Below are positions 46,044 through 56,714 of a stretch of DNA of 64,000 nt, in pieces (position 1 is the first letter of the stretch; each line of letters opens with the position of its first letter). The stretch comes from Candidatus Afararchaeum irisae. GTDB taxonomy: Archaea > Halobacteriota > Halobacteria > Halobacteriales > Afararchaeaceae. Below the pieces are notes generated by a model. The model was given only the letters and a program-made list of their open reading frames with translations, did no database searches and was not told where the DNA came from. The position numbers were made by a program, and so were the translations under genes. Where the stretch lies: the NCBI GenBank assembly GCA_034190545.1, contig JAXIOF010000001.1, positions 1 to 64,000 on the forward strand, written 5' to 3'.

Positions 46044-46326
46044 ATCATAAGATATGTAATTTGCATACAAGTAGTTTGTGGATGGCGTGGGCCTGTGGGC
46101 CGGTTGTCGCAGAGTGTTTGAGAGACGAAGACGGCGCTGTATCCCCTCCCTACTGTGCTACTCGGTCGCTCCGCTCCCTGCGTTGTGTTGAAAATCGGAG
46201 ATTTTCATACGTATGCGAATCTCTGATTCGCAACACTCCTTGAGGAAGGGGACTTAGCGCCTGCATTCAAGTTAAAATCCAAACGTCTCCGTTAGGCATA
46301 ATTCTCGGCGTCCCGAATCTCCGACA
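46044..46326. other. Left end of TnpB element and intergenic region
   Basis: A 283-base gap from the RHH gene to the GNAT gene. Bases 46044-46180 hold the AT-rich TTTGCATAC promoter-like block and GC-rich sequence without a gene. The double hairpin of the left end lies at 46185-46236. After 46262 only a short AT-rich stretch (TTAAAATCC at 46272-46280) precedes the GNAT start at 46327. Confidence 0.5.
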
Positions 46327-54658: not shown

Positions 54659-55442
54659 CGGTGAGACGGGGACTGAGGCGGAGACGAAGGTCGCAGTCGC
54701 GGGCGTCCGTGGACGTATGGGACGTCTCATACTCGACGTCATAAAGACGAGGAACACAGTCGAACTCGTCGGCGCGGTCGACAGGAACGGCGTCGGGGAC
54801 GAGATACGTGAACACGGCGTCGAGATAATGTCGCCCGACGAAGCCGAGGAGGCTTTCGACGAAGCCGACGTAGCTATAGAGTTTACCTCACCCGAGGGGA
54901 CACAGAGGTTCGTCGAAGCCGCCTTATCGACACGTACGCCTCTCGTGACGGGTACGACGGGTCTCACCGACGAGACCGAGTCGAAAGTAGAAGACGCCGC
55001 CGACGAGATACCCGTGCTCCAGTCGAGTAACTTCGCGACGGGTGTGAACGCCTTCTGGGAGATAGTCGAGGAAGCCGCGTCGCTTCTCCCGGGGTACGAC
55101 TACGAGGTGACAGAGACCCACCACAGACACAAAGTCGACGCGCCCTCTGGTACCGCGCTCACGACGGTAGAGAGGATAGAAAACGGCATAGGAGACCGCG
55201 AACACGTCCACGGAAGAGAGGGCGATTCTCCGAGGGGTGACGAGATAGGAGTACACGCCCGCAGAGCGGGAGAGATCGTCGGCGAGCACGAAGTTCTGAT
55301 ATCCGGTGAGGGCGAGTCTGTCATAATAAAGCACAGAGCCGGAGAGAGACGTGCCTTCGCAGCGGGTGCGGTCGACGCCGGAGTCTTCCTAGCCGGACAG
55401 GAGCCGGGTCTCTACGGAATGGACGACGTTCTCGACCTGTAA
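54651..55442 (+). CDS. dapB: 4-hydroxy-tetrahydrodipicolinate reductase
   Basis: NAD(P)H-dependent reductase following DapA, 263 residues. The Rossmann loop is VAVAGVRGRMGRLI, the second motif TGTTGLTDE, and the active-site signature EVTETHHRHKVDAPSGTAL is intact. C-terminal FAAGAVDAGVFLAGQEPGLYGMDDVL is typical. It is followed by the noncoding hairpin element, and the remaining dap gene (dapF) is on the other side of it. Confidence 0.95.
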   Translation: MTDGETGTEAETKVAVAGVRGRMGRLILDVIKTRNTVELVGAVDRNGVGDEIREHGVEIMSPDEAEEAFDEADVAIEFTSPEGTQRFVEAALSTRTPLVTGTTGLTDETESKVEDAADEIPVLQSSNFATGVNAFWEIVEEAASLLPGYDYEVTETHHRHKVDAPSGTALTTVERIENGIGDREHVHGREGDSPRGDEIGVHARRAGEIVGEHEVLISGEGESVIIKHRAGERRAFAAGAVDAGVFLAGQEPGLYGMDDVLDL

Positions 55443-55482
55443 TGTAACTAATCTAATATACTCACCGAGGAAAACAGACGTA

Positions 55483-55870
55483 TTGACCACCTCCACGCCC
55501 TAAAGGACGTGGAATCCCGTCACGGGATTTCGGGTACAGACACCGTACCCATCCGGTTTCAACCCGCATTAGCCGGAAACCGGCGACACACCGGAGAAAC
55601 TGTCGTTTTCTTCCGGTTAGGGTTGTGGCTGGGTCAACTCAGCCCCGTCTCCAACCGAGTCATTAACCAGAGACTTTTGCTCTGGTTTCTCTCCGTTGGA
55701 GTAGTACCAATATGTAACTCTTCAGAGCTATTAAAACATAGTGTGAAATCCGGTAGGTCTACGTAGTCCGTAGGTTAGGAGTGTTGTCGCTTGACCCCCG
55801 TTCGTCAATCTTCGATTGACGTGCTTGCTAATCACAGATTAGCGAACGCCTGAAGACGGGGGTATGCGCT
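55483..55870 (-). mobile_element. Noncoding IS200/IS605-type miniature element (PATE/MITE-like)
   Basis: About 390 bases with no plausible gene, packed with stems: CCACG/CGTGG (55493-55512, loop TAAA), AATCCCG-TCA-CGGGATT (55513-55529), GGGTAC/GTACCC (55532-55550), CCGGTTTC/GAAACCGG (55553-55583), a bulged CCGGA stem (55591-55616), a stem near 55627-55644, nested CTCCAAC/GTTGGAG (55649-55701) around AACCAGAG/CTCTGGTT, and a terminal 8-bp ACCCCCGT/ACGGGGGT stem (55794-55863) around GTCAATC-TTC-GATTGAC and GCTAATC-ACA-GATTAGC. The last layout copies the TnpB left end. The other end reads ..GGCGTGGAGGTGGTCAA on the minus strand, the type of right end seen in such elements. Boundaries are estimates. 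It lies between convergent dapB and dapF. Confidence 0.7.
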
Positions 55871-55880
55871 CGACTATATA

Positions 55881-56714
55881 TCAGACTTCTCCTTCGTAGA
55901 CTATCTCGGCGGGTCCCTTCATCATCGCCGATCCGTCCTCGAAGCTTATCCAGAGGTCGCCGCCGCGTGTCTGTATCCGCAGTTCTCCGTCGTCGTCAGT
56001 CTTTCCGAGTTCGCGCGCTACCGCGCCGACTGCGACACTTCCCGTGCCACACGACAGAGTCTCTCCCTCGACGCCCCTCTCGAAGGTTCTTATCTTGTAG
56101 CCGTCTTGAGTCGGAGACGCGAAGTTGACGTTCGAGCCCTCAGGAAAGACGTCGGCGTGGCGTATACCGGGAGCCTCTTCCTCGACATCTATCTCATCAG
56201 CCTCATCGACGAAGACCACTGAGTGTGGGACTCCTGTGTTACACGAGGTCAGACTGTAGCCGCCGATCTCCTCCTCGACTATACGTCTCTCGGCGGGGAC
56301 GTCTTCGGGATCGAAAGAAGGCTCACCCATATCTACGGTAACCATCTGTTCGCCGTTCTCTCGGCTGTGTCTCGTCTCCTTGACTCCATCGAGTGTCTCG
56401 ACATCCACCGTGACGGTCACATCCGAATCCGACTCATCGACGAAGCCCTCTTCCACGGCGTAAGCCACGAGACATCTCACGCCGTTCCCACACATCTCGA
56501 CCTCTTCTCCGTCAGGCTGGTAGAGTGACATACGTACGTCGTTGTCTCGGCTTTCGGGCTTCTGTAGGAAGAGGACTCCGTCGCCGCCTACCCCGAAACG
56601 TCTCTCGCAGTACTCAGACGCGAAGCCCTCCTTGTCCCCGACGGCTTCGGAGTCCCACTCATCGACTATCAGAAAGTCGTTGCCGTTTCCGTGTGCCTTC
56701 GTGAACTCGGTCAT
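55881..56714 (-). CDS. dapF: Diaminopimelate epimerase
   Basis: Converts LL- to meso-diaminopimelate, 277 residues. The two-cysteine active site is present: C in VEMCGNGVRCL and C in GETLSCGTGSVAV, with the symmetric domain halves. GNGNDFLIVDEW starts the first. It follows the YidC-like gene by 5 bases on the same strand. With dapA, dapB and a possible DapE at 8-9 kb, most of the pathway is in the window. Confidence 0.95.
   Translation of the reverse strand: MTEFTKAHGNGNDFLIVDEWDSEAVGDKEGFASEYCERRFGVGGDGVLFLQKPESRDNDVRMSLYQPDGEEVEMCGNGVRCLVAYAVEEGFVDESDSDVTVTVDVETLDGVKETRHSRENGEQMVTVDMGEPSFDPEDVPAERRIVEEEIGGYSLTSCNTGVPHSVVFVDEADEIDVEEEAPGIRHADVFPEGSNVNFASPTQDGYKIRTFERGVEGETLSCGTGSVAVGAVARELGKTDDDGELRIQTRGGDLWISFEDGSAMMKGPAEIVYEGEV

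Follow-up and report, generated by a model that had tools for sequence, protein, structure and literature searches.

The window analysed here is the whole 64,000-nt stretch of DNA from Candidatus Afararchaeum irisae, in which the convergent genes dapB (ending at 55442 on the plus strand) and dapF (ending at 55881 on the minus strand) flank a segment packed with hairpins; the interval between the two contains no plausible gene. The initial annotation had placed a gene-free segment of about 390 nt here, which is real, with an end at 55870 that we corrected to 55879, giving 397 nt. Both boundaries were fixed by comparison with a family of related elements (left end [LE], TGAT/A...AGCGCATACC; right end [RE], GG[AT]GGTCAA/, with slashes at the boundaries), and the empty sites of two relatives fall exactly at the ends so defined. 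Judged from its sequence, the segment is a complete, gene-less IS200/IS605-type element composed of an LE, an omegaRNA-encoding tnpB 3΄ end and an RE (Table 1). Its termini differ, so that terminal inverted repeats are absent, and palindromes lie near both ends (the LE arms and a terminal hairpin at 55491-55513). It does not encode the Y1 TnpA of an autonomous IS200/IS605 element, and the sole trace of a protein is a TnpB remnant of 35 aa. Because the TGA of the TGAT target is the stop codon of dapF, the insertion left this gene intact. The element is present as one full copy in its own genome.

Table 1. Features of the element between dapB and dapF and of a related repeat elsewhere in the window
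Feature	Position	Strand	Details
Whole non-autonomous IS200/IS605-type element	55483..55879	-	397 nt; LE at 55879, RE at 55483
TGAT target / presumed TnpB TAM	55880..55883	-	TGA is the dapF stop codon
Left end (LE)	55740..55879	-	Highly similar to the LE of the C106 tnpA-tnpB element
LE palindrome arms	55794-55801 / 55856-55863
Twin-hairpin insert (AATC-N3-GATT)	55801..55846	.	46 nt; splits 3΄ arm of the LE near-terminal palindrome
TATA-like box TTTTAATA	55729..55736	-	About 30 nt upstream of the RNA
OmegaRNA-like RNA gene (P1-P6)	55483..55704	-	Covariance model, MFE fold, covariation, homology to tnpB 3΄ ends
TnpB C-terminus remnant within the RNA gene	55599..55703	-	tblastn, 51% identity over 35 aa, E 2e-4; degenerate
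P1	55649..55701	-	CTCCAAC (55701-55695) pairs with GTTGGAG (55655-55649)
RE: last two RNA hairpins and terminus GGAGGTGGTCAA	55483..55529	-	P5 55513-55529, P6 about 55491-55513
Predicted guide TACGTCTGTTTTCCTCGGTG	55463..55482	-	Host sequence after RE; analogy with ISDra2 (PMC8612924)
Twin hairpins, left end of the window's TnpB element	46189..46232	.	Same repeat type; outside the 397-nt element

The LE is 94% identical over 162 nt to that of an intact tnpA-tnpB element of 2073 nt in the same genome, named C106 after the contig that carries it, whose tnpA matches Y1_Tnp (5.9e-36) and whose tnpB product contains a Cas12f1-like TNB domain (2.7e-17) and aligns with solved Cas12f/TnpB proteins. 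C106 likewise has the TGAT target and a GTCAA right terminus; however, it encodes both TnpA and TnpB, whereas the window element encodes neither, and its right end is homologous but diverged. The mobile reading in the initial annotation had hinged on an end sequence in common with some IS200/IS605 element, and this similarity provides one. ISNpe10-like IS200/IS605 elements, which we grouped with C106 as close known systems, also encode TnpA and TnpB. The genome contains 34 TnpB-domain matches compared with 3 Y1 TnpA genes, one of which has a stop, and most TnpB elements in this genome would therefore also depend on TnpA in trans.

The hairpins listed in the initial annotation, including the pair in the window's TnpB element, are exact in the sequence. 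The element contains CGTCAATCTTCGATTGACG (55803-55821), GCTAATCACAGATTAGC (55827-55843) and AATCCCGTCACGGGATT (55513-55529), and it has 3 perfect hairpins with stems of 7 bp or more and loops of 3-4, compared with 0.05 expected and a maximum of 1 in 300 Markov shuffles; for AATC-N3-GATT hairpins across the whole window, the count was 4 compared with 0.1 expected. The twin AATC-N3-GATT hairpins had been regarded as a sign of a cleavage machinery common to the two elements, a view that our results do not support: they belong to a dispersed repeat, which was found in 10 of 11 other examined stretches of the genome and, in C106, inside the tnpB coding sequence (L009 1210-1250) as well as in the element ends. 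In the window element this repeat is inserted in the LE palindrome, whereas most relatives have a plain palindrome (e.g. CCTCCGTCTTCAGGCGGAGG). We also rejected the twin hairpins as recognition sites of TnpA. Small mobile repeats have been reported as insertions in the palindromes close to the ends of IS605 elements and of palindrome-associated transposable elements (PATEs), the IS605-derived elements of Haloquadratum walsbyi described as non-coding (Dyall-Smith et al. 2011, PMC3119063); the twin-hairpin inserts resemble these repeats in behaviour. About 40 AATC-N3-GATT hairpins, often paired and far above chance, occur in 11 stretches of the genome (for example, L009 423-443, 1210-1250 and 2285-2412; also L012-L019). 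In several other genera (L024, L112, L122 and L140), a comparable twin-hairpin cassette of about 55 nt with GTCGT...ACGAC-like arms is inserted around P2 of the RNA.

Folding the segment as single-stranded DNA and its right part as the minus-strand RNA (MFE fold), a check proposed in the initial annotation, gave z values of -6.9 and -5.6, respectively, and no shuffle was as good in either case. The portion conserved across elements is an RNA-like region of 220-260 nt. We built a covariance model (R1) from tnpB-less sequences alone, with the window element as a training member, and found that, at 16 tnpB loci belonging to other elements, it matched the tnpB 3΄ end and right end over its full length (1-247), with E values from 1e-41 to 1e-14. 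In its own genome, the window element scored 173 bits (E 1.5e-57), C106 scored 77 bits and other TnpB loci scored at most 32 bits. Because a model made only of tnpB-less sequences recovers full-length tnpB 3΄ ends, we conclude that the predicted RNA is homologous to the omegaRNA of TnpB; its homology extends to an RNA of the tnpB 3΄ end and RE that ends at the element boundary, and its secondary structure is conserved. The initial annotation had set a mobile element against a structured RNA with a function of its own. The latter is supported as well, and both are likely to be true, the RNA being an omegaRNA homologue.

The stems of this RNA recur with other sequences. The P1 strands read CGGAATC/GATTCCG, CGAATACC/GGTATTCG or CGACAGCC/GGCTGTCG in relatives, and the same stem is formed by CCGTAG/CTACGG or CCTCAGC/GCTGAGG in tnpB genes. 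P2 of the window element is GGCTG/CAGCC, and P3, followed by three further hairpins, is CAACCC/GGGTTG compared with CAAGAC/GTCTTG in tnpB-linked RNAs; the MFE fold of the window RNA gives the same P1, P2 and P3. The hairpin at 55513-55529, which had been classed with the twin hairpins, exists and is of a different kind, namely the penultimate omegaRNA stem. In an alignment of 27 tnpB-less sequences, 25 pairs were changed on both sides, where shuffles gave 14.0 ± 1.9 and slid controls no more than 10 (107 cells versus 32; covariation score, 0.234 versus 0.093). P1 of the window subgroup is misaligned in this alignment and thus lies outside these counts; it was judged by eye and from the MFE fold. 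Most of 36 aligned elements have in common a T-rich box (AT 0.69-0.92) at -31 to -27 relative to P1, which fits a putative archaeal promoter. The internal domain inside P3 differs from that of tnpB-linked omegaRNAs, and it is therefore not certain that the TnpBs of those elements would load this RNA. Between the P1 strands, an invariant TGAC (about 55659-55662, minus strand) is complementary to the terminal GTCA of the RE (55484-55487), and the two could pair in nearly every sequence, tnpB-linked or not; it is possible that this candidate pseudoknot forms, and its invariance leaves covariation silent.

We searched 394 genomes of the order using the RNA part of one relative and defined matches with E ≤ 1e-18 as strong. 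Besides the genome of the window, 63 of the 394 genomes, belonging to 8 families and 34 genera, contained strong matches; the search of own and other haloarchaeal genomes advised in the initial annotation thus yielded relatives, and these lie at differing sites. Copy numbers are lower bounds because the best two candidates per genome were scored. No tnpA or tnpB was found inside the element in about 45 distinct loci inspected, where any nearby tnpB belongs to a separate element. For example, one locus with tnpB close by (L102) was considered as an autonomous version and rejected, the gene being part of a separate ISNpe10-type element arranged tail to tail. Family members are typically 300-430 nt long, and nearly all right ends read GAGGTCA. 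Of 31 distinct loci bearing the GCGCATAC left-end motif, 30 have TGAT directly before the LE, although the search did not require it, which shows for the relatives that the family inserts 3΄ of TGAT, a fixed short target retained as the left flank as in IS200/IS605 elements generally. Copies are also carried on named plasmids of Natrinema, Halorubrum, Halobaculum, Natrarchaeobaculum and Haloarcula, mostly in unannotated stretches. Two loci contain terminal-only pieces: a 48-nt element in which the LE palindrome is fused straight to GGAGGAGGTCAA after TGAT (L027 1509-1556, genome G022), resembling the core-deleted 52-bp elements reported in Haloquadratum, and an IS605-like piece (TTTGACATCCTCCTCCGCG...GCGGAGGAATCCC) inserted within the guide-RNA gene of another copy (L022, about 1440-1960).

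Three genomes provide evidence of mobility. The two copies in G010 lie at different sites and share 97% identity across the matched RNA part. A 384-nt copy in G322 splits an open reading frame; joining the flanks at TGAT/TTCGG restores the frame, and five homologues from other genera align across this joint with 0-2 gaps in about 270-300 nt. The 346-nt copy in G231 is preceded by a TGAT overlapping a stop codon, as in the window, and a congener (G362) has the empty site, with 285 of 300 bases identical (95%) and no gap through the joint. In both relatives, the empty site shows neither duplication nor loss of target sequence, and target duplication is likewise absent in PATEs. The empty sites that the initial annotation suggested looking for were therefore found for these two relatives of the window copy, and together with the TGAT target and the ends in common with an intact tnpA-tnpB element they strongly support its proposal of a non-autonomous IS605 relative. 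The copy in G231 (L118) and that in the window are independent insertions at a TGAT overlapping the TGA stop of the upstream gene, the product of which is unchanged.

The PATE HqIRS71, also called non-coding, retains part of the TnpB C-terminal coding region (PMC3119063), as the window element does. PATEs in general are similarly without terminal inverted repeats, have IS605-like near-terminal palindromes and are too short for a transposase; however, the 2011 study (PMC3119063), made before omegaRNA was understood, gave them neither a guide-RNA gene nor any structure, covariation or promoter. The omegaRNA (reRNA) of ISDra2 (PMC8612924) and the sot RNAs of haloarchaea (PMC12558985) resemble the window RNA in covering the tnpB 3΄ end and RE, in ending at the transposon boundary and in taking the flanking DNA as guide. 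In contrast to these, the window RNA has no tnpB attached, has a promoter-like box of its own and contains a different internal domain inside P3.

We consider, with a probability of roughly 0.7, that the segment is a non-autonomous IS200/IS605 element of a widespread haloarchaeal family that is moved by TnpA in trans and supplies its own guide RNA to TnpB in trans. Homology indicates that it arose by loss of tnpA and most of tnpB, with the tnpB 3΄ end and RE left in place. A Y1 TnpA, in this genome of the C106 type, would act on the shared ends, with excision and insertion as single-stranded DNA; in ISDra2, TnpA cuts out one DNA strand adjacent to its target (PMC8612924). An RNA made from a putative promoter within the element, with the guide TACGTCTGTTTTCCTCGG..., would load a TnpB in trans, for which C106 is the best candidate. 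In ISDra2, the reRNA bound by TnpB spans the 3΄ end of tnpB together with the RE, and its final 16 nt or so are flanking DNA; TnpB cleaves beside the same target motif, and the repair that follows is proposed to bring the element back (PMC8612924). By the same logic, the guide would direct TnpB to TGAT-TACGTCTG..., the sequence that excision leaves behind; because the 3΄ end of the RNA is flanking host sequence, this TGAT-flanked empty site would be cut, and the element would be regained through repair from the sister copy. It would thereby achieve both transposition and retention without encoding a protein.

The distribution of possible partners was also compared. C106-type TnpA was found in 49 of 63 genomes with the RNA and in 151 of 331 others (OR 4.2), and C106-type TnpB in 30 of 63 and 68 of 331, respectively (OR 3.5), kinship being ignored in both ratios. 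With few candidates scored per genome, 33 of the 63 RNA-bearing genomes had no close C106-type TnpB and 14 of 63 no C106-type TnpA, which suggests that the partners are more varied than the C106 type, or absent with some copies stranded.

The same RNA could be inert in a decaying deletion derivative of the PATE kind, in which it is carried along because it overlaps the RE needed by TnpA. Internally deleted IS605 elements are indeed common in haloarchaea (PMC3119063), terminal-only elements of 48 nt such as that in L027 exist, and the genome of the window has a single copy. However, P1-P3 sit 50-220 nt from the RE, outside the terminal hairpin, and nevertheless covary, and identical break-points and the promoter-like box are retained in many genera, so that we regard an inert RNA as unlikely. 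Somewhat less probable still is that the RNA works in trans as a decoy or regulator, occupying or inhibiting TnpB or guiding silencing or cutting elsewhere, instead of serving as a retention guide. The internal domain, unlike that of tnpB-linked omegaRNAs, is compatible with such a role, and possible decoy functions have been proposed for circular and separate isoforms of omegaRNA in haloarchaea (PMC12558985). Against this, the RNA stays in register with the RE, so that its last part is always flanking DNA, as expected of a guide. The only exact genomic copy of the predicted guide is the window site itself, and a search of the own genome for a second target returned nothing beyond weak near-matches, including one with 2 mismatches.

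Position between convergent genes and strong folding would also suit a fixed structured RNA or a bidirectional terminator for dapB and dapF. The initial annotation had held that covariation together with a conserved position would favour a fixed regulatory RNA; covariation is present, but the position is not conserved, as no other copy lies beside dap genes among the family loci examined. The flanks vary among loci and empty sites exist, and these observations largely refute a fixed dap regulatory RNA, which we consider very improbable. A DapB search of the genome contigs returned distant bacterial DapB alone and no haloarchaeal neighbour.

Meers et al. reportedly discussed PATEs and TnpB in Nature in 2023. 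Our text search, conducted chiefly outside the subscription literature and without Meers et al. 2023, found no paper tying such elements to omegaRNA. In our view, the element is a non-autonomous derivative of the IS605 kind that carries as its cargo a guide-RNA gene maintained by selection. Going further, we lean slightly towards a lineage, spread across the haloarchaea, of mobile guide-RNA genes that encode no protein and exploit the TnpA and TnpB of other elements, with each copy making its own guide RNA in trans and so programming the nuclease to protect its insertion site. PATEs have so far been treated as empty IS605 debris. If a lineage keeps a covarying omegaRNA gene and a promoter of its own while lacking both proteins, guide RNAs would themselves be a unit of selection and TnpB would act in trans for any guide supplier. 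Such elements would provide a natural test of why TnpB exists, since guide-only elements should persist in TnpB-containing cells and vanish without TnpB. In addition, the covariance model could be used to find many unannotated mobile guide-RNA genes, and the RNAs are compact natural scaffolds for genetically tractable haloarchaea.

A comparison of the window with Rfam gave no match at the gathering threshold. Below it, the three 3΄-terminal hairpins matched HgcC (RF00062) with 41.5 bits (E 1.3e-6; gathering score, 50) over positions 55470-55552, and a weak match to sot0042 was also observed. HgcC may itself be an omegaRNA.
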